The notes under the pieces: generated by a model
The model's input: the letters and a program-made list of their open reading frames with translations, nothing else
Told to the model about the DNA's origin: nothing
Database searches by the model: none
Assembly (NCBI GenBank): GCA_019136545.1
Contig: JAGVUA010000113.1
Location: 1 to 38,606 of the forward strand
Reading direction: 5' to 3'
DNA from: Betaproteobacteria bacterium
GTDB lineage: Bacteria > Pseudomonadota > Gammaproteobacteria > Burkholderiales > Rhodocyclaceae
Length of the DNA: 38,606 nt
Translations under genes and position numbers: made by a program
In this document: positions 2,437 to 38,015 of the stretch, piece by piece
How positions within the stretch are numbered: the first letter of the stretch is position 1
Layout: every line of letters starts with the position of its first letter

Positions 2437-2460
2437 CGGCGTACCGCCACGCCTGACTTT
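2437..2460 (-). repeat. 24-bp dispersed repeat, copy 1
   Basis: Intergenic, between the HDOD gene start and the flavodoxin-like gene stop. Read on the minus strand: AAAGTCAG, GCGT, GGCG, GTA, CGCCG. It matches the element found 12 times in the window. Confidence 0.85.
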
Positions 2461-2469
2461 CGGCAAGCC

Positions 2470-2961
2470 TCAAAACACGCCCATGGCCAAGCCGGCCGCC
2501 AGCGTCGCGCCGAGTTCGGCGCAGCGGGCCAGGTCCCCGGCACCGATCTGCTTGGGAGCAAGGATCGCCTCGGGCGTCTGGGCGTTGGTACGAACGATCA
2601 GCGCCGGCGCCACCGCCTTGAGGCGCCAGCCGGTGGCGATGCGGGCAATCTGGCGCGCGGCGTTCTCGCCATCGCTGCCGGCGCAGATCAAAGTACCGTA
2701 AGGCCGGCCGTTGATGCGGTCGAGGCAGGCGTAATAGCTGCGATCGAAGAAATCCTTGAGCATGCCCGACATTGCCGCAAGGTTTTCCGGCGTGGCGAAC
2801 AGGTAGCCGTCGGCGGCCAGCACATCGTCGCCACCGGCGGCGGCGGCATGCAGCAGCCGCGTGGCCACGGCCGGCTCGCCGGCAGCGCCGGCGGCTGCGG
2901 CTTCGGCCATCCGGCGGGTGCCGCCGGTCAAGGAATGATGGACGATCAGCAGCGTCTTCAC
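2470..2961 (-). CDS. Flavodoxin-like / NADPH-dependent FMN reductase family protein
   Basis: A 163-residue protein with a flavodoxin fold. The N-terminus, VKTLLIVHHSLTGGTRRMAE, has the first beta strand followed by the FMN phosphate loop (S-L-T-G-G-T). A later segment, GYLFATPENLAAMSGMLKDF, matches the second FMN-contacting loop of flavodoxin-like oxidoreductases (usually P-x-Y-x-G-x-x). The start chosen is the GTG at 2961, with the strong ribosome site AGGGGGAA just upstream. A longer frame reaching 3057 would overlap the yaeQ gene and adds non-homologous residues. It lies 28 bp after the YaeQ gene on the same strand, so the two probably form one transcript. The substrate and electron partner are unknown. 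Confidence 0.85.
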   Translation of the reverse strand: MKTLLIVHHSLTGGTRRMAEAAAAGAAGEPAVATRLLHAAAAGGDDVLAADGYLFATPENLAAMSGMLKDFFDRSYYACLDRINGRPYGTLICAGSDGENAARQIARIATGWRLKAVAPALIVRTNAQTPEAILAPKQIGAGDLARCAELGATLAAGLAMGVF

Positions 2962-2989
2962 CTGCCGTTCCCCCTCGTGGCGCGGTCGG

Positions 2990-3553
2990 TCATCGGCCCG
3001 GCAATCCGGCACGCTGGCCCTGCCGGATCTCGGGAACGACATGCAGCGTCGTCCCATCCACGTCGAGCCAGAGTTCGCCTTCCTGGAGGGTGCAACTGAT
3101 CTGCATGGTCCGCGCCACCCGCGCCGCCAGCGCCTGGGTGGCTTCGGCCGGCAGGTCGACGACCGTCAGCTTCGCCTGCTTGCGCAGTTGCGCTTCGTTC
3201 TGCTCCCACCAGGTTCGCGCGACCCTGCCGCCATAAGTAAGCGCTAACACTTGCTCGGCCCGACCGCAGGCGCGCCGCAAGCGCCGCTCGTCCGGCAAGC
3301 CGACTTCGATCCAGTCGACCACTTCGCCGGTCAGGCCGCGTCGCCACAGATCCGGTTCGTCGTCGGTCGACAACCCCCGGCCGAATTCCAGCGCGTCGTC
3401 GGCCGACAAGGCAAAAGCGATCAAGCGCACCATCATGCGCTCGTCGGTTTCCGAAGGATGCCGCGCCAGCGTCAGCGCATGGGTCTGGAAATAGCCGCGG
3501 TCCAGATCGGAAACCTGTAAATCCGCCTTGAAGATCGTCGCTTTAAGTGCCAT
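2990..3553 (-). CDS. yaeQ: YaeQ family protein
   Basis: A 187-residue YaeQ-family protein. The family has a PD-(D/E)XK nuclease-like fold. E. coli YaeQ was once linked to RfaH suppression, but its molecular role is not established. The start MALKATIFKADLQVSDLDR and the following HALTLARHPSETDERMMVRL, in which the conserved E and D lie, are diagnostic. The later segments GLSTDDEPDLWRRGLTG and WIEVGLPDERRLRRACGRA carry the conserved acidic residues and match the family length of about 180. It is the first gene of a probable two-gene leftward unit with the flavodoxin-like gene. The ATG at 3553 has no clear Shine-Dalgarno sequence. Family assignment is firm and function is not. Confidence 0.9.
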   Translation of the reverse strand: MALKATIFKADLQVSDLDRGYFQTHALTLARHPSETDERMMVRLIAFALSADDALEFGRGLSTDDEPDLWRRGLTGEVVDWIEVGLPDERRLRRACGRAEQVLALTYGGRVARTWWEQNEAQLRKQAKLTVVDLPAEATQALAARVARTMQISCTLQEGELWLDVDGTTLHVVPEIRQGQRAGLPGR

Positions 3554-3715
3554 TTGACGCCAATAATTAACGAGTTACCGGAATTCGGCCCTAGAGGTGC
3601 ACCTGAAACAATCTGTTGCAAATGACGCCCTGAACTTTTACCGACGGTCGCCGTCATAGTAACCGTGTCGAGTACGAATCGTTCGACAAGGCAACGCAAA
3701 GGACTTGAAATTTCA

Positions 3716-3775
3716 ATGCAGAACCCCATTATCGAGAGGTTTCTAGCCGATTCGCGCCGTTATCTAGGCGCTTAA
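3716..3775 (+). CDS. Possible 19-residue peptide ORF
   Basis: A short frame that reads MQNPIIERFLADSRRYLGA and stops at TAA. AAAGGA about a dozen bases upstream could act as a ribosome site. It lies ahead of a C-rich tract and a terminator-like palindrome, so it could be a leader peptide or part of a small RNA. Evidence is only the start context and the position. There is no homology I can recognise. Confidence 0.25.
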   Translation: MQNPIIERFLADSRRYLGA

Positions 3776-3842
3776 GATCGGCAAAACAGGCAGCGTTTAC
3801 GATCCCCATCGGTGGCTGGTCCCCCTCCTCCCCCAGTCACCC

Positions 3843-3868
3843 GAAGGCCCCGGCATGCCGGGGCCTTC
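3843..3868 (+). terminator. Perfect 26-bp palindrome, terminator-like hairpin
   Basis: GAAGGCCCCGG, CATG, CCGGGGCCTTC form an uninterrupted 26-bp palindrome. As RNA the stem would be 11 bp with a four-base loop, followed by the weakly T-rich TTCGTCATTA. It lacks a proper T-tract, so termination may be inefficient. The symmetric DNA could also bind a dimeric protein. Confidence 0.5.
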
Positions 3869-3896
3869 GTCATTACAGGAAGAGCTGGAGCATCTC

Positions 3897-4091
3897 ATGG
3901 CCCAACAGAGCATGAGCCTGATCGACGTCCTCAGGCCCCCCGTCAATCGCTGGCTGGTCGAACTCGCCAGATCCAAATCCGCCCCGCCGACAGGCGTGCG
4001 CGTCATCCGGTTCGGCAACGGCGATGAAGAGGAACTCGATCTCCCGGAGACCGGCTCGCCGCGCAAGTCGCGGCAGAAACTCGCAGGCTAG
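3897..4091 (+). CDS. Hypothetical 64-residue protein
   Basis: A small protein that I do not recognise. The chosen ATG at 3897 gives MAQQSMSLIDVLRPPVNRWL as its start. A longer frame from 3855 would begin inside the palindrome. GGAAGAG and GGAG lie 10-20 bases upstream and could serve as the ribosome site. The middle has a basic, helix-prone part (LVELARSKSAPPTGVRVIRF). It is followed by a strongly acidic stretch, GDEEELDLPE, and a basic tail, SPRKSRQKLAG. There is no signal peptide or membrane segment. It is followed after 95 bp by the M48 protease gene on the same strand. Codon use resembles neighbouring genes, which supports it being real. Confidence 0.55.
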   Translation: MAQQSMSLIDVLRPPVNRWLVELARSKSAPPTGVRVIRFGNGDEEELDLPETGSPRKSRQKLAG

Positions 4092-4186
4092 CGCCCAGGC
4101 GGCGCTCCTGTTACGCTTGCCGAAGCCGGCGGCCGGCAAAGCCGCCCGGGCCTGGTCGCGGCATGTTTCACTTCGGACAATTGTTT

Positions 4187-5710: not shown

Positions 5711-5718
5711 ACAAGGGG

Positions 5719-5739
5719 CTGGGGGCAAGTCGCCCCCGG
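5719..5739 (+). terminator. GC-rich hairpin after M48 protease gene
   Basis: GGGGGC, AAGTC, GCCCCC form a 6-bp perfect stem, extendable by a T-G wobble and a C-G pair, just after the stop codon. It lies between two converging genes. No T-tract follows, so this is a weak terminator candidate. Confidence 0.35.
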
Positions 5740-5756
5740 CGTTCCGGGCATGGCCG

Positions 5757-5780
5757 AAAGTCAGTGGCGGCGGCACGCCG
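5757..5780 (+). repeat. 24-bp dispersed repeat, copy 2
   Basis: Intergenic, between the convergent M48 protease gene and tpx. Reads AAAGTCAG, TGGC, GGCG, GCA, CGCCG. Confidence 0.85.
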
Positions 5781-5827
5781 CCGCGTTCGTTGCGCCGCTT
5801 GTTTCTACGGATTCTACGCCAACGGTC

Positions 5828-6328: not shown

Positions 6329-6461
6329 GGATCGAACTCCTATCGTTTTGTTGGGAACGGTGCTTTCTTCGAATTTTCGATGATGCGCCATATCGAGGGC
6401 GCTGTCATACTTTGCCACAGGCGGGCATGCATCGGCAAGTTCGGTCATCCCGACTCGTCTG

Positions 6462-6467: not shown

Positions 6468-6474
6468 GGGCGCC

Positions 6475-7113: not shown

Positions 7114-7118
7114 CGGAA

Positions 7119-9650: not shown

Positions 9651-10547
9651 ATGACATTGCGACTCGGCATCGACCTGGGAGGAACGAAAATCGAGATCGT
9701 CGCCCTCGCCGGAGACGGCGGTGAGTTGCTGCGCCGGCGCGTCGCCACGCCGCGCGGCGATTACCTGGCGACGGTCATGGCCGTGGCCGGGCTGGTCGAG
9801 TCGGCCGAGCACGAACTGGGCCGGCGCGGCAGCGTCGGCGTCGGCATTCCGGGCGCGGAATCGCGCGTCACCGGTTTCGTCAAGAACGCCAATTCCACCT
9901 GGCTGATCGGCCAGCCGCTGCGTCGCGATCTGCAGGCCCTGCTGCATCGGCCGGTGCGCATCGACAACGACGCCAACTGCTTCGCGCTGTCCGAAGCCAC
10001 CGACGGCGCGGCAGCGGGCGCCGAAGTGGTGTTCGGCGCAATTCTCGGTACCGGGGTCGGCGGCGGCATCGTCGTGCGCGGAGCGCCCCTGATCGGCGCC
10101 AACGCCATCGCCGGCGAGTGGGGCCATAACCCGATGCCGGACGAAAGCCGCCGCCCATCGTGCTACTGCGGCCGGACCGGCTGCGTCGAAAGCTATCTTT
10201 CCGGCCCCGGTCTCGTGAGCGACCACAAAGTCAGCGGCGGCGGCGCGCCGGGGGCCGAAGCCATCGTTGCCGGCGCCGCCGCGGGCGACCCCGCCTGCGC
10301 GGCGACCCTGGCGCGCTACGAAGCGCGGCTGGCCCGGGCGCTGGCGCAGGTGATCAACATTCTCGATCCGGAGGTCATCGTGCTCGGCGGCGGCTTGTCC
10401 AACATCGACCGGCTTTACGACAATGTGCCGCGGCTGTGGGGGGCGCATGTGTTTTCCGATCACGTGGCCACGCGCCTGGTGAAAAACCGCCACGGCGACT
10501 CCTCCGGCGTGCGCGGCGCGGCCCGGCTGTGGCAGGAGGCGCCATGA
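9651..10547 (+). CDS. ROK family sugar kinase (fructokinase/N-acetylglucosamine kinase-like)
   Basis: A 298-residue ROK-family kinase that phosphorylates a hexose with ATP in the cytoplasm. The ATP phosphate motif is LGIDLGGTKIEIV at the N-terminus. The catalytic base is probably Asp107 in RIDNDANCFALSEA, and GAILGTGVGGGIV is the second phosphate motif. The zinc site comprises His159 and the cysteines of CYCGRTGCVE (171-178). The presence of EWGHNPMP and YCGRTGCVESYLSGPGL suggests the NagK/Mak subgroup, but the sugar is not certain. A copy of the 24-bp repeat encodes KVSGGGAP at residues 193-200, in a loop that normally varies. The stop overlaps the start of the MFS gene by ATGA, so the two are translationally coupled. 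Confidence 0.93.
   Translation: MTLRLGIDLGGTKIEIVALAGDGGELLRRRVATPRGDYLATVMAVAGLVESAEHELGRRGSVGVGIPGAESRVTGFVKNANSTWLIGQPLRRDLQALLHRPVRIDNDANCFALSEATDGAAAGAEVVFGAILGTGVGGGIVVRGAPLIGANAIAGEWGHNPMPDESRRPSCYCGRTGCVESYLSGPGLVSDHKVSGGGAPGAEAIVAGAAAGDPACAATLARYEARLARALAQVINILDPEVIVLGGGLSNIDRLYDNVPRLWGAHVFSDHVATRLVKNRHGDSSGVRGAARLWQEAP
10227..10250 (+). repeat. 24-bp dispersed repeat, copy 3 (in ROK kinase gene)
   Basis: Reads AAAGTCAG, CGGC, GGCG, GCG, CGCCG. It is in frame as KVSGGGAP and adds no stop. Confidence 0.85.
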
Positions 10548-11770
10548 ATCCCTGGCTGCGCGTGTTTCTGCCGTTCGCGGTGGGCTACTACCTGTCCTAT
10601 CTGCTGCGCAACGTCAACGCCGTCATCGCGCCCGAGCTCATGCGCGAACTGTCCGTGTCGGCGGCCGACCTGGGGTTGCTGACTTCGGCCTACCTGCTCG
10701 CCTTCGCCGCCTTCCAGCTACCGCTGGGTCTGCTGCTCGATCGCCTGGGCCCGCGGCGCGTCGAGGCAGGCCTGCTGGTCGTCGCCGCGCTCGGCTGCAT
10801 CATCTTCGCGCTAGGCGACAGCCTGCCGCAACTGGCCTTCGCGCGCGGCCTGATCGGCCTGGGCGTGTGCGCCTGCCTGATGGCCAGCTTCAAGGCGTTC
10901 TCGCTCTGGTTTCCGCTCGAGCGGGCGGCATCGGTCAACGCGGCGGTGATGGCGGCCGGCAGCCTGGGTGCGCTGACGGCGACGACGCCGATCGGCTGGG
11001 CGCTGCCGGCGCTGGGCTGGCGCGGCGTTTTCTTCGGCCTGGCGGCGCTGGTGCTGCTCGGCGCGGCGGCGATCTTCACCACGCCCGAGAAGCCTGCCGT
11101 CCATCAGGGCGAGGGGCTGGACAAACAACTGAGCGCGCTCGCCGGCATTTTCCGCAGCCGGGTGTTCTGGCGCTTCGTCCCGCAGACGGCCTCCATCGTC
11201 GGCGGCTTCATGGCCCTGCAGGGCCTGTGGGCCGTGCCCTGGCTCACCGAGGTCGGCGGCCATTCGCGCGAGGAGGCGGCGTTTCACCTGCTGTTGACCG
11301 GCAGCGCCATGATGATCGGCTTTTTTGCCGTCGCGGTGCTGGTGCTGCCGCTGAAACGGCGCGGCATCGCGCCGGAATCGATTCTGGGCGCCGGCATGGC
11401 CCTGGGCATTATCGCCCTGGCGCTGATTCTCGCCGGCATCGGCCCGAGCCGCCTGCTCTGGTTCTCCCTCGGGCTGGTTTTTTCGGTCAGCAACCTCGTT
11501 TATGCGCTGGTTGCGGCCCATTTCCCCGTGCATCTTTCGGGACGGGTCAATACGGCCATCAACCTCGGCGCCTTCCTCGGCGCGTTCGGCATCCAGTGGG
11601 GACTGGGCGTGCTGGTGGATGCCCTGGCGACGCGCGGCATGTCGATGGCGGACGCTTATCGCTGGGCTTTTGGCGCCCTGGTGGTCGTGCAGGCCATCAC
11701 CCACGCCTGGTTCTTGATCGAAGGCCGCCGCTCGGCCCGCGTCAAAGCCAGCGGCGATCTTCCCGCCTAG
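10544..11770 (+). CDS. MFS transporter
   Basis: A 408-residue major facilitator superfamily carrier of the inner membrane, with about 12 predicted membrane helices. The first helix is LRVFLPFAVGYYLSYLLRNV. The loop between helices 2 and 3 (GLLLDRLGPRRVE) has the MFS signature pattern D-R-x-G-x-R-R. A second half begins near residue 205 after a cytoplasmic linker, EKPAVHQGEGLDKQ. The start is the ATG at 10544, with AGGAGG directly upstream, and it overlaps the kinase stop. Coupling with a sugar kinase suggests sugar or sugar-derivative uptake, but the substrate is not visible. The stop overlaps the 3' end of priA by four bases on the opposite strand. Confidence 0.92.
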   Translation: MNPWLRVFLPFAVGYYLSYLLRNVNAVIAPELMRELSVSAADLGLLTSAYLLAFAAFQLPLGLLLDRLGPRRVEAGLLVVAALGCIIFALGDSLPQLAFARGLIGLGVCACLMASFKAFSLWFPLERAASVNAAVMAAGSLGALTATTPIGWALPALGWRGVFFGLAALVLLGAAAIFTTPEKPAVHQGEGLDKQLSALAGIFRSRVFWRFVPQTASIVGGFMALQGLWAVPWLTEVGGHSREEAAFHLLLTGSAMMIGFFAVAVLVLPLKRRGIAPESILGAGMALGIIALALILAGIGPSRLLWFSLGLVFSVSNLVYALVAAHFPVHLSGRVNTAINLGAFLGAFGIQWGLGVLVDALATRGMSMADAYRWAFGALVVVQAITHAWFLIEGRRSARVKASGDLPA

Positions 11771-13746
11771 AATTCCAGCGGGTCGACGTCCAGGTGCCAA
11801 CGCAGCTCGCGCGGCGCCTTGAGCGCGCGCAGCCGCTCGCTCCACGCCGCCAGCAGGGCCTGCAAGGCTGGCCGGCTGGTCGATTCGACCAGCAGTTGCG
11901 CCCGCTCGCGATTCTTCAGGCGGAACAGGCGCATGGGCACCGGGTCGTAGAGACTGACCTGCGCGTCGGCGAGCGGCACGGCGGCGGCACGCGCCGCCGC
12001 GAGATAGGCCAGGGCATCGCCGATCTCGGGCGCCTCGGCCGACAGCAGCGCCTGGAATGAAAACGGCGGGAAGCCGGCGGCGCGGCGCTCGTCGAGTTGG
12101 GCGCGGGCGAAAGCGGCATAGTCGTGCTCGGCCAGCGCGCGATACAGCGGGTGCGCCGGATGCTCGGTCTGGATCAGCACTTCGCCGGGCAGGTCGTGGC
12201 GGCCGCTGCGGCCGCCCACCTGCATCAGCTGCGCGAACAGGCGCTCCGGCGCGCGAAAGTCGGCGGCGAACAGCGCCGCGTCGGCGCCGACCACGCCGAC
12301 CAGGGTCAGCCGGGGAAAATCGTGGCCCTTGGCCAGCATCTGGGTGCCGATCAAAATGTCCGCCTCGCCGGCATGAATCGCGGCCAGCAGGGCCTGCCAC
12401 CGCTTCGGCGTGCTGGCCGAATCGCGGTCGATGCGCAGCACCCGGGCTTGCGGAAACCGTTCGCCCAGCGCAGCCTCGAGCCGTTGCGTGCCGCGGCCGA
12501 ACGGGTGGATGTCCTGGTTGCCGCAGTCCGGGCAGGCACGCGGGATACCGGCTTCGAGGCCGCAGTGATGGCAGCGCAGCCGCTTGTCGGCCAGATGCAC
12601 CACCCGGTTGGCGGCGCAGCGCTGGCAGCGCGAAATCCAGCCGCAAGCCGGGCAGGCCAGTACCGGCGCGTAGCCGCGCCGGTTGAGGAAGACCAGGCTC
12701 TGCTCGCCGCGCGCCAGCCGCGTGGCCAGCGCGTCGAGCAGGGCGGCGCTCATGCCGTCCTGCAGCTTCTCCTTGCGGGTATCGACCATGCGCACGACCG
12801 GCGGCGCTTCGGCAACGGCCCGATGGCGCAGTTCGAGCAAACGGTAGCGGCCGGAGATCGCGTGATGGAAGGTTTCGAGCGCCGGCGTGGCCGAGCCGAG
12901 CACGATGGGCACGTCCAGCTGCTTGGCGCGCAACACGGCGACGTCGCGGGCCGAGTAGCGCAAGCCTTCCTGCTGCTTGAAGGAAGCGTCGTGTTCTTCG
13001 TCCACCACGATCAGGCCGAGGCGCGGCAGCGGCATGAACACCGATAGCCGCGTGCCCAGCACGATGTCGGCCCGACCCGCGAGCGCATCGAGAAAACCGC
13101 GCGCCCGAGCGGCATCGGGCACGCCGCTGTGCGCGGCGACGATGCACGCCGTGGGGAAGCGCTCACTTACGCGCTGTTCTAGTTGCGGCGTCAGGGCAAT
13201 TTCCGGCACCAGCATCAGCGCTTGCTTGCCGGCCGCCAGCACGGCATCGATGGCGCGCAGGTAAACCTCGGTCTTGCCGCTGCCGGTGACGCCATGCAGC
13301 AGAAAAGCCGCAAAGCCGCCCGAGGCATGGATGGCCTGCACCGCCGCCTGCTGCTCGGGAAGCAGCGCGGGCAAGGACTTGGCGGCCGGCGTGCCGCCAC
13401 CGCTGACTTTGCGCGGCCGGGGCAGTTTGCCTCGGCGCAGCAGCGGCGGCAAGGCGAAGGCCATGACTTGGCCGAGCGGATGCTGGTAATAGCGGCTGCA
13501 GAAATCGCACAGGGCCAGCCAGTCGGCCGGCAGCGGCGGCATGTCGCGCAGGATGGCGTCGGCGGGCTTGAGTTTTTCCGTTGGCTGGTCGCTCGCGGCG
13601 GCGACCGCGACGATCAGGCCGAGCTTGCGCCCGCTGCCGAAAGGCACGCGCGCACGACAACCGATATCGCTCTCCGCGACCTCATCGGCCTGGTAATCGA
13701 ACAGGCGCGGCAGGGGAACATCGAGGGCGACTCGGACAATGCTCAT
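11767..13746 (-). CDS. priA: Primosomal protein N' (replication restart helicase PriA)
   Basis: A 659-residue 3'-to-5' helicase that recognises stalled forks and loads the replisome for restart. The N-terminal DNA-binding part starts VRVALDVPLPRLFDYQ. Walker A is GVTGSGKTEVYL (152-163) and Walker B is VVDEEHDAS with DEEH at 249-252. The zinc-binding region contains the cysteine pairs CPACGWISRCQRC and CHHCGLEAGIPRACPDC, all intact. It is shorter than E. coli PriA (732), as is normal in betaproteobacteria. A copy of the 24-bp repeat encodes KVSGGGTP at residues 113-120, in the linker between the 3'-end binding and helicase domains. The upstream gap holds DnaA-box-like sites. It converges with the MFS gene. 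Confidence 0.97.
   Translation of the reverse strand: MSIVRVALDVPLPRLFDYQADEVAESDIGCRARVPFGSGRKLGLIVAVAAASDQPTEKLKPADAILRDMPPLPADWLALCDFCSRYYQHPLGQVMAFALPPLLRRGKLPRPRKVSGGGTPAAKSLPALLPEQQAAVQAIHASGGFAAFLLHGVTGSGKTEVYLRAIDAVLAAGKQALMLVPEIALTPQLEQRVSERFPTACIVAAHSGVPDAARARGFLDALAGRADIVLGTRLSVFMPLPRLGLIVVDEEHDASFKQQEGLRYSARDVAVLRAKQLDVPIVLGSATPALETFHHAISGRYRLLELRHRAVAEAPPVVRMVDTRKEKLQDGMSAALLDALATRLARGEQSLVFLNRRGYAPVLACPACGWISRCQRCAANRVVHLADKRLRCHHCGLEAGIPRACPDCGNQDIHPFGRGTQRLEAALGERFPQARVLRIDRDSASTPKRWQALLAAIHAGEADILIGTQMLAKGHDFPRLTLVGVVGADAALFAADFRAPERLFAQLMQVGGRSGRHDLPGEVLIQTEHPAHPLYRALAEHDYAAFARAQLDERRAAGFPPFSFQALLSAEAPEIGDALAYLAAARAAAVPLADAQVSLYDPVPMRLFRLKNRERAQLLVESTSRPALQALLAAWSERLRALKAPRELRWHLDVDPLEF
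13387..13410 (-). repeat. 24-bp dispersed repeat, copy 4 (in priA)
   Basis: Read on the minus strand: AAAGTCAG, CGGT, GGCG, GCA, CGCCG. It is in frame with priA and encodes KVSGGGTP. Confidence 0.85.
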
Positions 13747-15285: not shown

Positions 15286-15309
15286 AAAGTCAGGCATGGC
15301 GACGCGCCG
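15286..15309 (+). repeat. 24-bp dispersed repeat, copy 5
   Basis: Intergenic, upstream of hemE and downstream of the hybrid kinase gene. Reads AAAGTCAG, GCAT, GGCG, ACG, CGCCG. Confidence 0.85.
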
Positions 15310-22298: not shown

Positions 22299-22315
22299 GA
22301 CCTCAGGCCCGATCG

Positions 22316-22339
22316 AAAGTCAGCCACGGCGATGCGCCG
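22316..22339 (+). repeat. 24-bp dispersed repeat, copy 6
   Basis: Intergenic, between trkA and trkH within the same leftward run. Reads AAAGTCAG, CCAC, GGCG, ATG, CGCCG. Its last part is therefore a potential hairpin in the operon mRNA. Confidence 0.85.
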
Positions 22340-22373
22340 CGCAACGGCGAGAAATTCCGGGAACGACGCATGG

Positions 22374-27155: not shown

Positions 27156-27757
27156 TTCTGGCCCGCCGCCGTCGGCGCGAAGCGCCAGCGCAGCACGCGC
27201 GTCTCGACCTGCCACCCCTTGTTGGCGATGGCGTCGAGCTGGAACGGCTTGGGCAGCTGGCTCCGGTCCAGCGCCAGACGCAGCGCCGCGTCGTAATGGC
27301 TGCCGGCCTTGAGCGCCGACTTGTCGGCCACCGGCAGGTCGACGACGCGGCCGAGCACGCGCAGCGCTTCGCCCAGCGTGGCGAAGCTTCGGTGCAGCCC
27401 CCCCGACGACAGCCGGTACTGCCGGGTCAACACGTTGTAGGACAGGGCGTAATGACCGACATGGCCGGCGATGTGCTCGTCGACCCAATACCAGCGGTCG
27501 CGCGACAGCGTGAATTCGAGATTGAAATGCAGCGTCACGCCGCGCGTCAGCGCCTCCTCGAGCTGGGCGCCGAGGTCGATGTCGAATTCCGCCGACAGCA
27601 CATAGCCGCCTTCTTCGGCGAGCGACAGTTGCGCGCTCTTCGGCTCGATGCTGCCGGCCTGCGCGCCGGCGATGCAGCCCGCCCACAGCGCCAGTACCGC
27701 CAGCAGCGCCAGCGTTCGGCTAAAGGCGCTTGGCCAGCAGCGCGTAGTAGAAACCAT
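27152..27757 (-). CDS. DUF4390 domain-containing protein
   Basis: A protein of about 201 residues of the DUF4390 family, whose members nearly always lie between rsmB and ntrY in betaproteobacteria. The role is unknown. A hydrophobic N-terminal segment (TLALLAVLALWAGCIAGAQA) suggests export or membrane anchoring. The core shows the family features AEFDIDLGAQLEEALTRGVT, WYWVDEHIAGHVGHYALSYN and TRQYRLSSGGLHRSFATLGE. The chosen start is the ATG at 27757, inside the end of rsmB (38-bp overlap), because it gives a complete signal-like N-terminus. No clear ribosome site is visible, so the start is uncertain. A further ATG at 27769 is an alternative. Its stop overlaps the ntrY start. Confidence 0.85.
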   Translation of the reverse strand: MVSTTRCWPSAFSRTLALLAVLALWAGCIAGAQAGSIEPKSAQLSLAEEGGYVLSAEFDIDLGAQLEEALTRGVTLHFNLEFTLSRDRWYWVDEHIAGHVGHYALSYNVLTRQYRLSSGGLHRSFATLGEALRVLGRVVDLPVADKSALKAGSHYDAALRLALDRSQLPKPFQLDAIANKGWQVETRVLRWRFAPTAAGQK

Positions 27758-29006
27758 CGTGGTCAGCATCAGGCAGCAGTTGCCACTCGCATCCCTTGTC
27801 GTTGTCCGGCATCGGCAAGCGTTGCGCATCGCCGTGGCGGGCAACGAAGGCCGCGACCTGCCTGCCGTTCTCCTCCGGGAACAGCGAACAGGTCGCATAG
27901 AGCATTTTGCCACCCGGCGCCAGCAGCCGCCACAGCGCATCGAGGATTTCCCGCTGGCCGGCGGCGAAACGGGCCAGATCGCCGGGCCGGCGCAGCCACT
28001 TGATGTCGGGATGGCGGCGCGCGACGCCCGACGCCGAGCAGGGCACGTCGGCCAAAATGCGGTCGAACCGGCGGCCATCCCACCAGGCATCGACATCCCG
28101 GCAATCCGCGACTTTCACTGCTGCGGCCAGCCCGAGCCGGCGCAGGTTGTCGCCGATGCGCGTCGCGCGCGCCGCATCCAGTTCCAGCGCCGTCAGGTCG
28201 AGGTCGGCCCGCTCCAGCAGGTGGGCCGTTTTGCCGCCCGGCGCGGCGCAGGCATCGAGCACGCGCTGGCCGGCCTGCGCGTCGAGCAGCGGCGCGGCCT
28301 GCTGCGCCCCCCAGTCCTGGACCGACACGAGCCCCTCGGCAAAGCCGGGCAGCCGCTCCACCGGCATGGGCCGGGCCAGTCGCAGGCCGGTCTCGCCCAT
28401 GACGTCGGCCGCGATGCCGGCGTTCGCCAGCAGGCGCTGAAAGTCAGCCGTGGCGACACGCCGCCGATTCACCCGCAAGGTCATCGGCGCCCGCTGGTTG
28501 CCGGCCTCGGCCACTTCGCGCCAACGGTCCGGGCAGGTGGCGCGCAGCTCGGCCAGCCACCAGCGCGGATGCTGCCAGCGCGCCGTTTCGTCGCGCTCGG
28601 CCGCCGCCGCCAACTCGCCGCGACGGCGCAGAAAGTTGCGCAGCACGCCATTGACCAGCGCCTTGTAGCGGCCGCGCGCCAGACCGGCCGCCGCCGTCAC
28701 TGCCTGGTCGACCGTGGTGTGGGCATCCTCCGGCCGCGTCTCGAGCCGCTGCAGGGCCGCCAGCAGCAGGCTGCGGACGATGGGTTCGGCGAGCGGTCGC
28801 GCCAGCAGTTGCGCAAGAAAGAAGTCGCCGCGCCCGAAGCAGCGCAGCGTGCCGTAGGCCAGATCCATCACCGCCGGCCGCGCCGCCGCCGGCAAATCCA
28901 GCGCCGCCAGCGCCAGTTCGAGGTTGCGGCCGTCGATCACCGCCGCTATCGCGCGCGCGGCGGCATCGAGGGTGAAAGCCAGCGAATCGACCGCGGGTCG
29001 CTTCAT
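27720..29006 (-). CDS. rsmB: 16S rRNA (cytosine-967-C5)-methyltransferase
   Basis: A 428-residue SAM-dependent RNA methyltransferase that makes m5C967 in 16S rRNA. The N-terminal NusB-like domain runs from about residue 5 to 130. The catalytic domain has DACAAPGGKTAHLLE (SAM-binding), the release cysteine Cys323 in DVPCSASGVARRHPDIKW and the catalytic Cys373 in YATCSLFPEEN. The start is the ATG at 29006. A longer open frame to 29099 has no family similarity. The ribosome site is weak. A copy of the 24-bp repeat encodes RRVATADF near residues 182-189, in a variable loop. It heads the leftward run that leads to trkH. Confidence 0.95.
   Translation of the reverse strand: MKRPAVDSLAFTLDAAARAIAAVIDGRNLELALAALDLPAAARPAVMDLAYGTLRCFGRGDFFLAQLLARPLAEPIVRSLLLAALQRLETRPEDAHTTVDQAVTAAAGLARGRYKALVNGVLRNFLRRRGELAAAAERDETARWQHPRWWLAELRATCPDRWREVAEAGNQRAPMTLRVNRRRVATADFQRLLANAGIAADVMGETGLRLARPMPVERLPGFAEGLVSVQDWGAQQAAPLLDAQAGQRVLDACAAPGGKTAHLLERADLDLTALELDAARATRIGDNLRRLGLAAAVKVADCRDVDAWWDGRRFDRILADVPCSASGVARRHPDIKWLRRPGDLARFAAGQREILDALWRLLAPGGKMLYATCSLFPEENGRQVAAFVARHGDAQRLPMPDNDKGCEWQLLPDADHDGFYYALLAKRL
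28440..28463 (+). repeat. 24-bp dispersed repeat, copy 7 (in rsmB)
   Basis: Reads AAAGTCAG, CCGT, GGCG, ACA, CGCCG on the plus strand. The rsmB gene reads the other strand, in a third reading frame relative to other intragenic copies. Confidence 0.85.
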
Positions 29007-29617: not shown

Positions 29618-31066
29618 ATGGCCGCTTCGCCCGCCCTGCCGCCAAGGATCCGCTCGCTGCTCGACCCGGGCCGCTACCCGCATCCGGTCGATCGCGTCGA
29701 GTTGGTCGAAACGCACATCTCCTGGGTGCTGCTCGCCGGCGCCTTCGCCTACAAACTGAAAAAACCGGTGACGCTGCCCTTCGTCGATTACGGCAGCGTC
29801 GAGCGACGGCGCGCCCACTGCGCCGCCGAACTGCGCTTGAATCGCCGCTATGCCCGCGACCTCTACCTCGAAGTGGTGGACTTCGACGGCGAGCCGGCGG
29901 TGAAAATGCGGCGCTTCGACGACGCCTGCCGCCTCGATCGTGTCTGCGCCCGGGGCGCGTTGACGCCGGCGCATCTGTCCGGCCTGGCGCGTGCTCTTGC
30001 CGAGTTCCACGCGGCGGCGGCAATCGCCCCGCCATCCTCGCGTTTCGGCGCGCCGGAACAGGTGATGGCACCGGCGCGCGCGAACTTCGACGAGCTGGAC
30101 GGCTTGCTGCCCGGCGAGTCGCCGCGGCTGACTTTGCTGCGCGCCTGGACCGAAGCCGAGTTTGCCCGTTGTCGCGACGCCTTCGCGGCGCGCAAGGCGG
30201 GCGGCTTCGTCCGCGAATGCCATGGCGACCTGCACCTGGGCAACTTGGTGCTGCTGGACGGCCAGGTGACGCCTTTCGACTGCATCGAGTTCAACGAGGA
30301 TTTCCGCTGGATCGACGTCGCCAGCGAGATCGCCTTCACGTACGTCGACCTGCTCGACCACGGCCAGCCCGGCCTGGCCTGCTGGCTGCTCAACGAATGG
30401 CTGAGCTGGCGCGGCGACCAGGACAGCGGCGGCGCCCTGGCCGTACTGCGCTTCTACGCCGTGTATCGCGCCATGGTGCGCGCCAAGGTCGCGGCCCTGC
30501 AAGGCCGCATCGAAGCGGCGGCCGCTTATCTCGCGCTGGCCGAGCGGCTCGGCGCGCCGCCGCGGCTGACTTTGACCATCACGTTCGGCCTCTCGGGTTC
30601 GGGCAAGACCACGGCCTCGTCGGCGCGGCTGCTGGCGGACCCCGCCGCCGCCACGCTCCGCTGGCGTTCGGACGTGGAGCGCAAGCGCCTGTTCGGGCTG
30701 GATGCCGACGCCGATTCCGGCGGCGCGATCTATTCGGCCGACGCCAGCGCCCGCACTTATGCCCGGCTGGCCGACCTGGCCCGGACCACCCTGGCCCATG
30801 GCTGGCCGGTGATCATCGATGCCGCCTTTCTCAGGCGCGACGAACGGCAGGCCTTCGCGGCCATCGCCGACGGCCTGGGCATTCCCTTCGACATCCTGGC
30901 TTGCACCGCGCCGCTGGACACCTTGCGCCGCCGGCTCGACGCACGCCGCGACGACGCTTCGGAAGCGACTGCGGCGGTGCTCGAACAACAACGGGAATGG
31001 CTCGAGCCGCTCGACGACGCGGAACGGGCGCGCGCGAGCGCACCGACGCCGGTCAGACCCGATTGA
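29618..31066 (+). CDS. Two-domain aminoglycoside-phosphotransferase-like / P-loop kinase
   Basis: A 482-residue protein with two kinase-like halves. The N-terminal half resembles aminoglycoside phosphotransferases: ECHGDLHLGNLVL contains the catalytic Asp and Asn, and VTPFDCIEFNEDFRW the metal-binding Asp221. The C-terminal half is a P-loop kinase of the zeta-toxin/gluconate-kinase type with Walker A GLSGSGKTT at 324-332 and a late basic lid (RRRLDARRDDASEA). Members of this fusion family occur widely, but no substrate is known. Two copies of the 24-bp repeat encode GESPRLTL (166-173) and GAPPRLTL (312-319). The latter forms the junction between the halves. The ATG at 29618 lacks a strong ribosome site. 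The 3' end overlaps the next gene on the other strand by 14 bases. Confidence 0.88.
   Translation: MAASPALPPRIRSLLDPGRYPHPVDRVELVETHISWVLLAGAFAYKLKKPVTLPFVDYGSVERRRAHCAAELRLNRRYARDLYLEVVDFDGEPAVKMRRFDDACRLDRVCARGALTPAHLSGLARALAEFHAAAAIAPPSSRFGAPEQVMAPARANFDELDGLLPGESPRLTLLRAWTEAEFARCRDAFAARKAGGFVRECHGDLHLGNLVLLDGQVTPFDCIEFNEDFRWIDVASEIAFTYVDLLDHGQPGLACWLLNEWLSWRGDQDSGGALAVLRFYAVYRAMVRAKVAALQGRIEAAAAYLALAERLGAPPRLTLTITFGLSGSGKTTASSARLLADPAAATLRWRSDVERKRLFGLDADADSGGAIYSADASARTYARLADLARTTLAHGWPVIIDAAFLRRDERQAFAAIADGLGIPFDILACTAPLDTLRRRLDARRDDASEATAAVLEQQREWLEPLDDAERARASAPTPVRPD
30112..30135 (-). repeat. 24-bp dispersed repeat, copy 8 (in kinase gene)
   Basis: Read on the minus strand: AAAGTCAG, CCGC, GGCG, ACT, CGCCG. 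The gene reads the complementary strand as GESPRLTL. Confidence 0.85.
30550..30573 (-). repeat. 24-bp dispersed repeat, copy 9 (in kinase gene)
   Basis: Read on the minus strand: AAAGTCAG, CCGC, GGCG, GCG, CGCCG. The gene reads the complementary strand as GAPPRLTL at the domain boundary, in the same frame as copy 8. Confidence 0.85.
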
Positions 31067-33286: not shown

Positions 33287-34309
33287 ATGAAAACGCTTCT
33301 GTTCGCCATGATCGCCCTGCTGGCCGCCGCCTGCGGCCAGCCAGCGCTGCATTCGCAGGAATCCTACGTTTTCGGCACCCGCGTCGAGGTGCTGGTCTGG
33401 GGCGAGCCCGGCGACCGGGCCCGCGCCGCCGTTGCCGAGGTGCTGCGCGAATTCGACCGCCTGCACCGGACCTATCATGCCTGGCAGCCCTCGGAGATGA
33501 CCGCCCTCAACGAGGCGCTCGCCGCCGGCCGCCAGCACGAGGTCTCGCCGGAATTCGCCGATTTCATCCGCGAGGCGCAGGCCATGTCGGCCAAGGGCGA
33601 CCACCTGTTCGACCCCGGTCTGGGCCGGCTGATCGAGCTCTGGGGTTTCCACGACGACACTTTCAAGGCCCAGCTGCCCGACCCGGTCCGTCTCGCCGAA
33701 CTGGCGCAGGCGCGGCCCTCCATCGCCGGCCTGCGCGTCGAGGGGACGAAAGTCAGCGGCGGCGACCCGCCGAACACCCGCATCGCGCTCGACTTCGGCG
33801 GCTACCTGAAAGGCGTGGCGCTCGACCGCGCCGCCGCCATGCTCAAGGCCCGGGGCATCGCCAACGCGCTGATCAACATCGGCGGCAACGTCATGGCGCT
33901 GGGCTCGAAAGGCGGCACGCCCTGGCGGGTCGGCATCCAGCACCCCCGCCAGCCGACACCGATGGCCACCCTGGAATTGCGCGATGGCGAGGCGATCGGC
34001 ACCTCGGGCGATTACCAGCGCTTTTTCGAGGTCGACGGCCGGCGCTACTGCCACCTGATCGACCCGCGCACCGCGCGTCCGAGCACGGGCACGCAGGCGG
34101 TGACGGTGCTGATTCCGGCCGGCTTCGATGGCGGCAAGGCGGGCACCTGGTCCGACGTGGCCAGCAAGCCGATCTTCATCGCCGGCACCGATTGGCGCGC
34201 GCTGGCCGGCCGGCTGGGCATCGACGGGGTGCTGCGCGTCGGCGCCGACGGCCAGGTCGAACTGACCGACGCCATGCGCGCGCGCGTCAAGCTAGAATCG
34301 CGGCCATGA
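33287..34309 (+). CDS. apbE: FAD:protein FMN transferase (ApbE family lipoprotein)
   Basis: A 340-residue enzyme that attaches FMN to threonine residues of target flavoproteins such as Nqr/Rnf subunits and other respiratory proteins. The N-terminus is a lipoprotein signal with lipobox LAAAC (Cys16), so it acts in the periplasm. Family motifs are YVFGTRVEVLVWG, FDPGLGRLIELWGF, IALDFGGYLKGVALDRA, LINIGGNVMALG and HLIDPRTARPS. The usual metal-binding Asp/Thr region near the end (GTWSDVASKPIFIAG) is present. A copy of the 24-bp repeat encodes KVSGGDPP (155-162) in a variable loop. The ATG at 33287 has no obvious ribosome site. Its stop overlaps the EIIA start by ATGA. Confidence 0.95.
   Translation: MKTLLFAMIALLAAACGQPALHSQESYVFGTRVEVLVWGEPGDRARAAVAEVLREFDRLHRTYHAWQPSEMTALNEALAAGRQHEVSPEFADFIREAQAMSAKGDHLFDPGLGRLIELWGFHDDTFKAQLPDPVRLAELAQARPSIAGLRVEGTKVSGGDPPNTRIALDFGGYLKGVALDRAAAMLKARGIANALINIGGNVMALGSKGGTPWRVGIQHPRQPTPMATLELRDGEAIGTSGDYQRFFEVDGRRYCHLIDPRTARPSTGTQAVTVLIPAGFDGGKAGTWSDVASKPIFIAGTDWRALAGRLGIDGVLRVGADGQVELTDAMRARVKLESRP
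33749..33772 (+). repeat. 24-bp dispersed repeat, copy 10 (in apbE)
   Basis: Reads AAAGTCAG, CGGC, GGCG, ACC, CGCCG and encodes KVSGGDPP in frame. Confidence 0.85.
34293..34298 (+). promoter_or_regulatory. -10-like TAGAAT at end of apbE, leaderless start of EIIA gene
   Basis: TAGAAT lies exactly seven bases before the ATG at 34306, inside the last codons of apbE. No Shine-Dalgarno sequence precedes the ATG. It could give a separate leaderless mRNA for the PTS genes. Confidence 0.4.
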
Positions 34310-34692: not shown

Positions 34693-34702
34693 AAGCGAGA
34701 TC

Positions 34703-34972
34703 ATGCCCCGGGCCGAAGTCGAAATCGTCAACAAGCTGGGCCTGCATGCGCGCGCCTCGGCGCGCCTGACCCAACTGGCCGGCAGCTACCCCTGTGAAGT
34801 CTGGATGGAGCGCAACGGTCGTCGCATCAACGCCAAGAGCATCATGGGCGTCATGATGCTGGCGGCCGGCAAGGGCGCCACGGTAGTGGTCGACTGCGAA
34901 GGCGAACAGGCCGACGAGGCGCTGGCCGCGCTGGTGAAGCTGATCGCCGACAGGTTCGGAGAAGCCGAATGA
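34703..34972 (+). CDS. ptsH: Phosphocarrier protein HPr
   Basis: An 89-residue phosphocarrier. The active-site histidine lies in NKLGLHARASARLTQLA and receives phosphate from enzyme I. The regulatory serine region NAKSIMGVMMLAAGKG is intact, which fits control by an HPr kinase/phosphorylase, usual in betaproteobacteria; no hprK is in the window. The start is the ATG at 34703, with AGCGAGA a few bases upstream. The 3' end overlaps the ptsI start by four bases (ATGA). HPr passes phosphate to the EIIA encoded just upstream. Confidence 0.97.
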   Translation: MPRAEVEIVNKLGLHARASARLTQLAGSYPCEVWMERNGRRINAKSIMGVMMLAAGKGATVVVDCEGEQADEALAALVKLIADRFGEAE

Positions 34973-36703
34973 GCTTCGCCCTGCACGGCCTGGCGGTGTC
35001 GTCGGGCATCGCCATCGGCCGTGCCCACCTGGTGTCGCACGCCACGCTGGAGGTCGCCCACTACAGGATCAAGGACCGGGACGTGGCGACCGAGCTCGCG
35101 CGCTTCGACGCGGCGGTCGCCAGCGTCAGGGCGGAACTCGATCAGCTCAAGAGCGAAGCGTCGGCGCCGGGCACGCCGTCGGAAGTCGCGGCCTTCGTCG
35201 ACATCCACGCCATGATCCTCGCCGATCCGATGCTCGCCGAACTGCCCAAGGACCTGATCCGCGAGCGCCGCTGCAACGCCGAATGGGCGCTGGTGCAGCA
35301 GATGGAACAGCTGGTCGAGCAGTTCGACGAAATCGAGGACGCCTACCTGCGCGAGCGCAAGCACGACGTGGTGCAGGTGGTCGAGCGGGTACTCAAGGCC
35401 CTGATGGGCAAGGCGCGCAAGCTATCCAGGCGCGGCAAGGACGAGGACCTGATCATCGTCGCCCACGATCTTTCGCCGGCCGACACCATTCAGTTCAAGA
35501 ACCTGAAGATCGGCGGCTTCGTCACCGATCTGGGCGGCGCCACCTCGCACACCGCCATCGTCGCCCGCAGCCTGGCCATTCCGGCGGTGGTCGGCCTGCA
35601 CCACGCCCGGTCGCTGGTGCGCGAGGACGACCTGGTCATCGTCGATGGCAGCCGCGGCGTGCTGCTCATCGAGCCCGATCCGCGCGTGCTCGAGGAATAC
35701 CGGCTCCGCAAGAGCGAGCTGGAGCTGGAGCGCTCCAAGCTCAAGCGCCTGAAGAACGCGCGGTCGGCAACGCTCGACGGCGAGGAAGTGGCGCTCCAGG
35801 CCAACATCGAGCTGCCGCAGGACATCGAGCAGGTCAAGGAAGTCGGCGCCGACGGCATCGGCCTGTTCCGCACCGAGTTCCTGTTCATGAACCGCGACGA
35901 ACTGCCCGACGAGGACGAGCAGTACGAGGCCTACAAGGCGGTGGCGAAGGCCATGGCCGGCCGGCCGGTGACCATCCGCACCCTCGACCTCGGCGCCGAC
36001 AAGGAAGTGCAGGCGCTGGCCGGCACGGGGCGGCAGGCGACCAACCCGGCGCTCGGCCTGCGCGCCATCCGCTATTGCCTGGCCGAACCGCAGATCTTCC
36101 TGACCCAGTTGCGCGCCATCCTGCGCGCCGCCCACTACGGCAACATCCGCATCCTGATTCCCATGCTCGCGCATGTCGCCGAGATCGAGCAGACGCTGGC
36201 GATGATCGCGCAGGCCAAGGCCCAGCTGCGCGCCACGCGCCACAAGTTCGACGAAAACATCCGCATCGGCGGCATGATCGAGATTCCGGCGGCGGCGCTG
36301 GCGCTCGGACCCTTCGTCAAGCGCCTGCACTTCCTGTCGCTGGGCACCAACGATCTCATCCAGTACACCCTGGCGATCGACCGCTCGGACGAGACGGTGG
36401 CGCATCTCTACGATCCGCTGCATCCCGCCGTGCTGCGCCTGATCCACCAGACCATCGCCGCCGGCGCGCGCGCGGAGATTCCCGTCGCCGTCTGCGGCGA
36501 AATGGCCGGCGATCCGGCCATGAGCCGGCTGCTGATCGGCCTTGGGGCTGCGCCAGTTCTCGATGCACCCCTCGCTGATTCTCGAGGTCAAGCAGCAGGT
36601 CGTCACGGCCGACGCCGAGATGCTGGCCATGAAAGTCGGCCGGCTGCTCCGCTTCGAGGAACCGGACCGGCTGCGCGAGCACGTCGAGAAACTCAACGCC
36701 TAG
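34969..36703 (+). CDS. ptsI: PTS enzyme I, frameshifted near the 3' end
   Basis: Enzyme I takes phosphate from phosphoenolpyruvate and passes it to HPr. The swivel-domain His194 lies in GGATSHTAIVARS. The PEP-binding domain has GIGLFRTEFLFMNR, TIRTLDLGADKE, FLSLGTNDLIQYTLAIDR and the catalytic Cys in CGEMAGDP. All match the family until about residue 525. There the GGGG run at 36544-36547 appears to carry one extra G. In the uncorrected frame the protein ends in an unrelated basic tail, with a stop at 36754-36756. In the corrected frame it reads LRQFSMHPSLILEVKQQ and onward to EHVEKLNA, stopping at TAG 36701-36703, for 577 residues (E. coli 575). A sequencing error or a real mutation are both possible. 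Confidence 0.93.
36544..36547 (+). other. Suspected one-base insertion in ptsI (GGGG run)
   Basis: Removing one G restores the enzyme I C-terminus to full family length. This is the likely point of the frameshift. Confidence 0.75.
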
Positions 36704-36704
36704 C

Positions 36705-36728
36705 AAAGTCAGCCGTGGCGGCGCGCCG
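36705..36728 (+). repeat. 24-bp dispersed repeat, copy 11
   Basis: Intergenic, one base after the true ptsI stop. Reads AAAGTCAG, CCGT, GGCG, GCG, CGCCG. Confidence 0.85.
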
Positions 36729-36730
36729 AA

Positions 36731-36752
36731 CACGCCGAGCACGCCGAGCACG
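36731..36752 (+). repeat. Short tandem repeat of a 9-mer
   Basis: CACGCCGAG occurs twice in tandem, followed by CACG, just after repeat copy 11 and just before the metX -35 element. Confidence 0.6.
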
Positions 36753-36781
36753 TTGACGTAGCGCGGCAAGCAAGGTAAGTT
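36753..36781 (+). promoter_or_regulatory. Promoter of metX
   Basis: TTGACG at 36753-36758 and TAAGTT at 36776-36781 are separated by exactly 17 bases. The -35 matches consensus at five of six bases, the -10 only at three. The predicted start, near 36788, coincides with the 5' end of the riboswitch aptamer, which supports it. Confidence 0.5.
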
Positions 36782-36787
36782 GCTTCC

Positions 36788-36846
36788 CGTGGCGCCAATT
36801 TGAACTCAGCTTGCGGGCGCTTGATAAATTCGGCTAAAGCGAGGAA
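36788..36846 (+). ncRNA. SAM-II-type riboswitch aptamer upstream of metX
   Basis: The segment contains, in order, the pieces conserved in SAM-II (metA/SAM-alpha) aptamers. A P1 strand GCGCC (36792-36796) pairs with GGCGC (36816-36820). The loop has AATTTGAAC and GCTTGCGG. A joining segment TTGATAAATT is followed by GGCTAAAG (36832-36839). CTC (36804-36806) can pair with GAG (36841-36843) as the pseudoknot. These match what I recall of SAM-II sequences, notably the TGATAAAT and GCTAAA blocks. It sits directly upstream of metX, a methionine gene, as SAM-II switches do, and it is followed by a terminator. Excess SAM should switch off metX. Confidence 0.82.
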
Positions 36847-36851
36847 TCCGG

Positions 36852-36887
36852 AACCCGGTCCCGCTTTCGCAGCCGACCGGGTTTTTT
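36852..36887 (+). terminator. Intrinsic terminator, riboswitch expression platform
   Basis: AACCCGGTC (36852-36860) and GACCGGGTT (36875-36883) form a perfect 9-bp stem with a 14-base loop. A run of six T follows (36882-36887), and the metX ATG lies only seven bases further on. The position between the aptamer and the gene implies transcription attenuation. Confidence 0.85.
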
Positions 36888-36894
36888 ATTGCAC

Positions 36895-38007
36895 ATGAGC
36901 AGCTCGAACAACGGTATCGGCATCGTCAAGGCGGAACGCGCTCGCTTCGAAGCGCCGCTGGCGCTCGCCTCGGGCGGCACGCTGCCCGGCTTCGAGCTGG
37001 TTTACGAAACCTACGGCAAGCTCAACGCGGCGGGAAGCAACGCGATCCTGGTCTGCCACGCACTGTCCGGCCATCATCACGTCGCCGGACATTACGCCGA
37101 CGAACCGAAGAATGTCGGCTGGTGGGACAACATGATCGGGCCCGGCAGGCCGATCGACACCGAGCGTTTCTTCGTCGTGGGGGTGAACAATCTCGGCGGC
37201 TGCCACGGCTCGACCGGACCGGCGTCGATCAATCCGGCCACCGGCAAAGCCTGGGGCGCCGACTTTCCGGTGGTGACCGTGACCGATTGGGTCAATGCCC
37301 AAGCTCGGCTGGCCGACCGCCTGGGCGTTTCGCAGTGGGCGGCAACTGTAGGAGGAAGTTTGGGCGGCATGCAGGCCCTGCAATGGACCCTGCAGTTTCC
37401 CGAGCGCGTCCGCCACGCGCTGGTCATCGCCGCCGCGCCCAACCTGACCGCCGAGAACATCGCCTTCAACGAAGTCGCGCGACAGGCCATCCTCACCGAT
37501 CCCGAGTACAAGGCCGGCCGGCGGCCGGTGACCGGCCTGCGCCTGGCGCGCATGCTCGGCCACATCACCTACCTGTCGGACGACCAGATGGCCGAGAAGT
37601 TCGGTCGCAAGCGCCGGCCGAACGCCGCTTCCTTCGGCTTCGGCGTCGAGTTCGAAGTGGAGTCCTACCTGAACTACCAGGGCGACAAGTTCGCCGAGTG
37701 GTTCGACGCCGACACTTACCTGCGCATGACCCGGGCGCTCGACTACTTCGACCCCGCCGCCGAATATGGCGGCGACTTGCAAGCGGCGCTGGTGCGGGCG
37801 CAGGCGAAGTTCCTGGTGGTGTCGTTCTCCACCGACTGGCGCTTTTCGCCCGAGCGGTCGCGCGAAATCGTCGATGCCCTCGTGCACAACGGCCAGAATG
37901 TCGCCTATGCCGAGATCAAGAGCGTGCACGGCCACGATTCCTTCCTGATGCAGGACGCGCACTACCACGCCATCGTGCGCGCCTATCTCGACGGCGTGTC
38001 GCCATGA
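36895..38007 (+). CDS. metX: Homoserine O-acyltransferase (MetX)
   Basis: A 370-residue alpha/beta-hydrolase-fold enzyme that acylates homoserine as the first committed step of methionine synthesis. The acyl donor (acetyl- or succinyl-CoA) cannot be decided safely from sequence. The nucleophile is Ser155 in [15 protein letters not shown]. The catalytic Asp is in [16 protein letters not shown] and the His in [27 protein letters not shown] and YETYGKLNA are also diagnostic. The start is the ATG at 36895. A TTG two codons earlier is possible. No Shine-Dalgarno sequence lies between the terminator T-run and the ATG, which is unusual. The stop overlaps metW by ATGA. It is probably controlled by the SAM-II-type switch. 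Confidence 0.97.
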
Positions 38008-38015
38008 CTGACTTT
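37992..38015 (-). repeat. 24-bp dispersed repeat, copy 12 (metX/metW junction)
   Basis: Read on the minus strand: AAAGTCAG, TCAT, GGCG, ACA, CGCCG. It contains the metX stop and the metW start codon. Confidence 0.8.

Follow-up and report, generated by a model that had tools for sequence, protein, structure and literature searches.

The stretch of DNA considered here, referred to as the window, is a 38,606-nucleotide contig (contig 93) of a Rhodocyclaceae genome assembly, G000, which comprises 3.40 Mb in 162 contigs. The window harbors twelve copies of a word of about 24 bp, in which an invariant octameric core, AAAGTCAG, is joined to a degenerate half, BSRYGGCGRYACGCCG. The twelve positions, their strands (seven plus and five minus) and the pattern given in an initial annotation of the window are all exact, as is its statement that each octamer is followed by the full second half (12 of 12). 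The octamer was said to be expected less than once, and the expectation is indeed 0.33. The 24-mer pattern, which was fitted to the window's own 12 sites, finds no match in 100 dinucleotide shuffles of the window, the shuffling control that the annotation had proposed; an Rfam search of the window also gave no match. Gene calls, made with a home-made codon-usage finder, place seven of the copies in coding sequence, four between genes and one across a gene junction, where the initial annotation counted five as intergenic.

Six genomes of the same genus were compared, of which four carry the word (G000, G001, G002 and G004) and two do not (G003 and G005). These are metagenome-assembled genomes (MAGs) with completeness of 80-95%, and the lack of a single gene in any one of them is therefore weak evidence. 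The four intergenic copies lie at 2437..2460 (minus strand), between two minus-strand genes; at 5757..5780 (plus), between genes for an M48 peptidase and a redoxin; at 15286..15309 (plus), upstream of a uroporphyrinogen decarboxylase gene; and at 22316..22339 (plus), within a 61-base spacer (window 22302-22362). No alignment to a relative extends across either of the first two. At 15286, homology with G004 contig C20 stops at the element, and an exact G004 copy stands at that end (C20:9287-9310). The spacer around 22316 is represented in G002 by about 3 of its 61 bases, the flanking matches nearly abutting; the corresponding gaps in G001 and G002 contain no element.

The coding copies are found in both orientations. 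Those in sense frame 0 lie at 10227..10250 (plus), in a gene of the ROK family (fructokinase-like, 9657-10547), where the peptide is KVSGGGAP and G002 keeps the core; at 13387..13410 (minus), in priA (11767-13746, minus strand), where the peptide is KVSGGGTP and the site is not kept in the other five genomes, the alignment being gapped or diverged; and at 33749..33772 (plus), in an apbE-like gene (33287-34309), where the core is kept in G002 and G004, is one base off in G001, and is followed by a diverged second half in G003. The copy at 36705..36728 (plus), near the 3' end of a ptsI-like gene (34969-36756), is read in sense frame 2, and its core is kept in G002. The remaining coding copies are antisense. 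That at 28440..28463 (plus) lies in rsmB (27720-29006, minus strand); G002 keeps the core, and G003 and G005 align ungapped with the motif absent. In G001 (C61) the core of this site is also kept, but some two dozen inserted bases separate the first half of the copy from the second. Two copies fall within one AAA_33 gene (29618-31066, plus strand): that at 30112..30135 (minus) aligns with ungapped, motif-free sequence in G001, G002 and G005, and that at 30550..30573 (minus) with a one-off core, AGAGTCAG, in G002 and with ungapped, motif-free sequence in G005. Finally, the copy at 37992..38015 (minus) spans the metX/metW junction, where alignment to all five relatives requires a gap and G001, G002, G003 and G004 are 15 bases longer.

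The word is found throughout the carrier genomes. The exact pattern occurs 132 times in G000 (69 and 63 by strand), spread over many contigs, as well as 38 times in G001, 82 times in G002 and 34 times in G004; it is found in neither G003 nor G005, nor in 55 other genomes searched. With up to two mismatches the carriers have 473 (G000), 341 (G001), 382 (G002) and 404 (G004) copies, G003 has 5 and G005 has 7, and the reversed pattern at the same tolerance gives none in any of the six. A near-random count, or a lack of enrichment in relatives, had been named in advance as the outcome that would tell against the repeat; the counts are of neither kind and the finding survived. Two of the seven near-matches in G005 (C252:8200 and C252:16363, with 2 and 1 mismatches, respectively) share a contig and are possibly acquired DNA or relics. 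Among 399 genomes from the order, a looser pattern returned 246 matches in G000 and one in each of two others. The named MAGs with the motif, EFPC_121 (JAEHDA), fen_999 (PMIH) and NC_groundwater_1816 (JACRIZ), belong to the Rhodocyclaceae. Seven stretches of viral contigs contain one match each.

The core stands out by itself. When octamers with 20 or more occurrences are ranked, AAAGTCAG exceeds the expectation from base composition by the largest ratio both in 430 kb of G000 (114 versus 4.6) and in 372 kb of G001 (62 versus 3.9), although these ratios are somewhat inflated because most of the stretches came from contigs with known exact copies. If the expectation is taken from a Markov model, the overlapping AGTCAGCC comes first in the two genomes, and in 213 kb of G005 AAAGTCAG is seen 8 times with 2.3 expected. 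The pieces behind the detailed G000 statistics come from 22 contigs, 21 of them already on the list of exact copies, and the G001 stretches were likewise selected from contigs with known copies; the 25-fold enrichment, the density and the presence of copies in all 24 pieces consequently lean upwards. The whole-genome counts (exact, up to two mismatches and order-wide) are unaffected by this choice. Words that have the core and no more than two mismatches are found once per 6.0 kb in the G000 pieces, and words with up to two mismatches anywhere once per 7.2 kb genome-wide.

By matches to the fitted 24-mer (12, with about 1.5 expected) the window looks like an unusually dense cluster, but octamer counts do not bear this out: there is one per 3.2 kb in the window and one per 3.8 kb in other stretches that total 391 kb and were taken from contigs where copies were already known. 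The exact pattern, derived as it is from the window, fits all 12 of its elements versus 43 of 182 elsewhere in the G000 pieces, or 55 of the 194 octamer-anchored elements with up to five mismatches found in 858,841 bases, window included. Similarly, GGCG and CGCCG are both present in 12 of 12 window elements versus 76 of 182 elsewhere. Under a weight matrix trained on sequence from elsewhere, the window copies do not score significantly higher (Mann-Whitney P = 0.11).

Of these 194 elements, 140 lie in genes, 14 on gene edges and 40 between genes, where wholly intergenic 24-mer positions make up 8.8% of the G000 pieces. The 138 that fall within a single gene use five frames, two antisense (16 and 48) and three sense (40, 15 and 19); the sixth, which is unused, would put a TGA into the gene. 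Sense frame 0 gives rise to a recurring KVSxGxTP peptide. The orientation of neighboring copies is near random, with 95 pairs in the same and 75 in the opposite orientation out of 170 (P = 0.14), and their spacing is slightly more even than random placement would give (coefficient of variation 0.82 versus 0.94 +/- 0.06, P = 0.025). Eight element-free gaps in the G000 pieces exceed 11 kb. At one place in G004 (C139:3492-3543) a pair of exact elements point toward each other across four bases, an arrangement that resembles the inverted pairs of uptake sequences that serve as terminators.

The information in the word is confined to positions 0-25, around 26 bp, and amounts to 33 bits over the 194 G000 elements. 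In the flanks, T is avoided immediately before and after the word, and there is a mild preference for C two bases upstream (0.2 bits). A set of 165 contexts from several genomes, from which 17 loci of other organisms had been removed and in which six of uncertain kin were retained, resembles the G000 profile. Where the second half is good, the core is perfect in 157 cases and altered by one change in 21, with 17 of the 21 changes at positions 1 and 2, and none of 1896 permuted-core octamers is followed by a good second half. The GGCG and CGCC segments can pair on paper, as the initial annotation had pointed out, but covariation lends such a hairpin little support. In 261 elements pairing is about as frequent as expected; the outer pairs, 12/24 (P = 0.002) and 13/23 (P = 0.03), do show dependence. 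In 392 elements, 1728 of 1960 cells are paired versus 1718 +/- 4 after shuffling, a level reached by 11 of 1000 shuffles; a control with the partners slid by two bases has much the same excess (22 of 1000), and standard pairs in which both bases have changed account for just 4 of the 1960 cells. Elements with more than five mismatches were dropped from these counts and from the G000 distribution. We read the motif as duplex DNA, in which pairing may play a minor role.

Comparison of orthologous places reveals how sites are kept. Elements with more than four mismatches were dropped from the window frame, orthologous-pair and length-change counts, alignments below 300 bits were left out of the core-retention and net-length counts, and the site pairs, being counted in both directions and across several genomes, are not independent. 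Between carriers, 93 of 148 pairs have the exact core at the corresponding position (46 of 76 in one direction and 47 of 72 in the other), whereas control octamers in the same alignments are identical in 4502 of 20,035 cases (22.5%). Toward the non-carriers the core is retained in only 3 of 37 pairs: 3 of 20 toward G003, representing a single site counted from each of three genomes (control 572 of 3095, 18%), and 0 of 17 toward G005 (control 413 of 3038, 14%). Of the 46 carrier pairs that lack the core, 26 have no gap within the 24 bp, and in 14 of those 26 a single base departs from it. In ungapped non-carrier alleles 1-4 bases depart from the core (mean 3.1, n = 8), as compared with about 6.2 for random octamers. 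Among the 64 absent pairs with a net change below 30 bp, no partner is shorter by 22-26 bp. The sequences at absent sites fit in-place point change better than the insertion of a unit, though not decisively in every case.

The six genomes were also searched for genes of natural competence. ComEC matches are present in G000, G001, G002 and G005, and none was found in G003 or G004; DprA exceeds the cut-off in all six genomes except G003; and pilin-like matches number 21, 26, 20, 9, 19 and 13 from G000 to G005. The competence set of ComEC, DprA and pilins is thus complete in G000, G001 and G002, and the fourth carrier, G004, has DprA and pilins. The TIGR00368 (YifB/ComM) model does not separate carriers from non-carriers. 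G003, at 1.4 Mb and 80% completeness, is much smaller than its relatives and has nearly no copies of the word while possessing pilin genes. The chance that both of its competence genes are missing through incompleteness alone is about 4%, if the two are independent. In an unrooted tree of 10 window proteins (3756 amino acids, of which G004 covers 2095 positions), G003 groups with G001, G002 and G004 against G000 and G005 with 99% support, the inner nodes receiving 61 and 43; a DNA tree recovers the same split at 100, with inner nodes of 67 and 62 and a different inner order. If the root is assumed to lie on the G005 branch, then G003 would have lost the word along with its competence genes, as an uptake signal predicts.

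Taken together, these properties lead us to view the element as a DNA uptake sequence that belongs to one genus of Rhodocyclaceae, with a probability of roughly 0.6, an assignment that is made as a fit to sequence data. Of the three explanations offered in the initial annotation, this is the one that fits best. Enrichment, restriction to the genus, invariance of the core, orthologous retention in carriers only and the lack of any sign of clean 24-bp insertions are all observed directly, and three of the four carriers possess comEC, dprA and pilin genes. The rest of the mechanism we infer. The core and the GC-rich half would be bound as double-stranded DNA by a receptor at the cell surface, most likely one of the minor pilins of type IV pili, such that DNA of the organism's own kind would be taken up preferentially through recognition of the word. 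Alleles bearing the word would then be taken up and recombined into the chromosome more often, and the word would build up across the genome, through point changes as well as recombination, on both strands and in whichever frames can be tolerated.

A number of observations weigh against this assignment. Most of the pieces behind the detailed statistics come from contigs that were previously known to hold exact copies. There is no ComEC match in the carrier G004, the assembly of which is 85% complete, and G005 possesses comEC and dprA yet lacks the word, which is compatible with non-selective competence, though not predicted. The search for a receptor among the pilins gave none, the one orphan pilin considered having failed. 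Close pairs are rare, with just 5 of 170 spacings below 300 bp in any orientation, and three of the eight long gaps (on C29 and C8) hold what appear by eye to be metabolic genes, with no obvious foreign DNA. Gaps fall inside the 24 bp in 20 of the 46 carrier pairs that lack the core; net length is unchanged in just 36 of 69 absent pairs, non-carriers included, with some change in the other 33 and a difference of at least 30 bp in 5; and the site at 22316 sits in a spacer that is largely missing from G002. Finally, variants one base off the core are rare where the second half is good, and the core is sharper than that of the H. influenzae uptake signal sequence (USS).

The principal rival is a dispersed site, kept by selection, for an intracellular DNA-binding protein such as a nucleoid organizer, a recombination hot-spot protein or a segregation protein, unrelated to uptake. 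Core invariance and orthologous retention suit any specific DNA-binding protein, and the slightly even spacing and the excess of intergenic copies (40 of 194 versus 8.8% of positions) also point in this direction. KOPS, Chi and matS are over-represented short sites of this general kind. The Rhodocyclaceae word is longer than these and bipartite, and its strands are balanced (234 and 239; neighbors 95 same and 75 opposite), which speaks against the KOPS or Chi types, just as its occurrence on many contigs speaks against regional sites of the matS or parS types. Segregation, one of the roles originally suggested, is thus not favored; the accompanying check for strand bias was made on the overall balance of strands and on the orientation of neighbors. 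Moreover, 140 coding copies in 0.86 Mb, with amino acids changed in five frames, would represent a heavy cost for a structural site, and overall we regard this explanation as unlikely.

Repetitive extragenic palindromes (REPs) associated with REP-associated tyrosine transposases (RAYTs) are short dispersed repeats with a dyad, mainly extragenic, and the word shares with them its dispersal and a dyad on paper. A short mobile or self-copying repeat, whether a REP, a miniature inverted-repeat transposable element (MITE) or some other element spread by a transposase-like enzyme, could account for the many genus-specific copies, the invariant head and the GC dyad; the small excess of paired cells (11 of 1000 shuffles) and the dependence noted for pairs 12/24 and 13/23 would agree with it, as would the spacer at 22316 that is largely absent in G002 and the net length change in 33 of 69 absent pairs. 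The hairpin, net-length and ascertainment data lean slightly its way. Yet the Y1 transposase family, PF01797, for which all four carriers and both non-carriers were searched (85-95% complete), has no match in G000, G001, G002 or G004, and one and two matches in G003 and G005, respectively. The slid control shows a like excess of pairing, and double-changed standard pairs fill no more than 4 of the 1960 dyad cells; none of the 64 absent pairs is short by 22-26 bp; non-carrier alleles remain closer to the core than random sequence (3.1 versus about 6.2 bases); and variation is restricted to certain positions. With no Y1 transposase in carriers, most copies in genes (140 of 194), little covariation in support of the hairpin and no 24-bp deficits, a REP moved by a RAYT is disfavored, and we consider a mobile repeat of any kind very unlikely. 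Chance, or a common amino-acid motif, gains some appearance of plausibility from the KVSxGxTP peptide repeated in sense frame 0, but a motif of this kind would keep to one frame and five are used; the presence of copies on both strands and between genes, and the absence of matches in shuffled sequence and to the reversed pattern, leave it with a negligible probability.

An uptake sequence in the Rhodocyclaceae would have two established counterparts. A 2025 paper (PMC12616744) describes uptake signals as known only in Neisseriaceae and Pasteurellaceae, with hundreds to thousands of copies per genome; the USS is there given a 9-nt core with looser discontinuous parts, up to 32 nt, the DNA uptake sequence (DUS) is described as continuous and up to around 13 nt, and inverted close pairs are said often to serve as terminators as a secondary function. 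Like the Pasteurellaceae USS (Hin-USS AAGTGCGGT), the Rhodocyclaceae word has a short conserved core with a looser downstream part and hundreds or more copies. It differs in its core, in having a GC-rich rather than AT-rich second part, in its betaproteobacterial host and in its few close pairs. The Neisseriaceae DUS, which N. meningitidis and N. gonorrhoeae have in about 1900 copies and for which no frame preference is noted in S. muelleri (PMC3630211), is likewise an abundant genomic repeat of Betaproteobacteria. The reverse strand of the word, CTGACTTT, even contains CTG, the inner core of the DUS, which may be coincidence. Unlike the bipartite word, however, the DUS is continuous, at up to around 13 nt, and is the more numerous; no counterpart of ComP was found for the Rhodocyclaceae word. 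Among the open-access papers listed by the searches, none showed such a motif for Rhodocyclaceae, and nothing joined uptake sequences with this family; the matches listed for the octamer string were unrelated, a search for over-represented uptake sequences in Betaproteobacteria returned Neisseria only, and one for uptake sequences in metagenome-assembled genomes gave a single review.

A broader reading, to which we give somewhat less than an even chance, is that the word represents a third, independently evolved uptake signal system, with a bipartite structure of 8 bp and a GC-rich part, in a genus that includes both a species without the word (G005) and one that has apparently lost the word along with comEC and dprA (G003). 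If this were true, the birth and decay of self-recognition could be compared among close relatives, and a third lineage, known from metagenome assemblies only, would show that such signals evolve repeatedly. With carrier and non-carrier species in one genus, it would be possible to compare how the signal arose, what it costs the proteins and which receptor reads it.

As to the receptor, an orphan PilE-like pilin (G000:C106:47510-48013), encoded next to genes of an iron ABC transporter, was considered. It has counterparts in G002 (71% identity), G004 (65%), G050, from another family of the order (62%), and G057 (42%), and was rejected because it is absent from the carrier G001 and present in the wordless G050 and G057. 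A second pilin cluster, presumably MSHA-like, is present in all four carriers (G000:C55:29654-36066, G001:C56, G002:C106 and G004:C285) and in neither non-carrier, which makes it a receptor lead, albeit a weak one given shared ancestry and incomplete assemblies. In the leader of an orthologous pseudopilin from three carriers, the frame-1 peptide of the element stands just before the pilin motif, reading ESQSWCYA in G001 (C130:70714), KSQSWRYA in G002 (C9:4995) and KSQSWWYA in G004 (C68:4671), and the G002 leader holds an exact element (C9:4966-4989).

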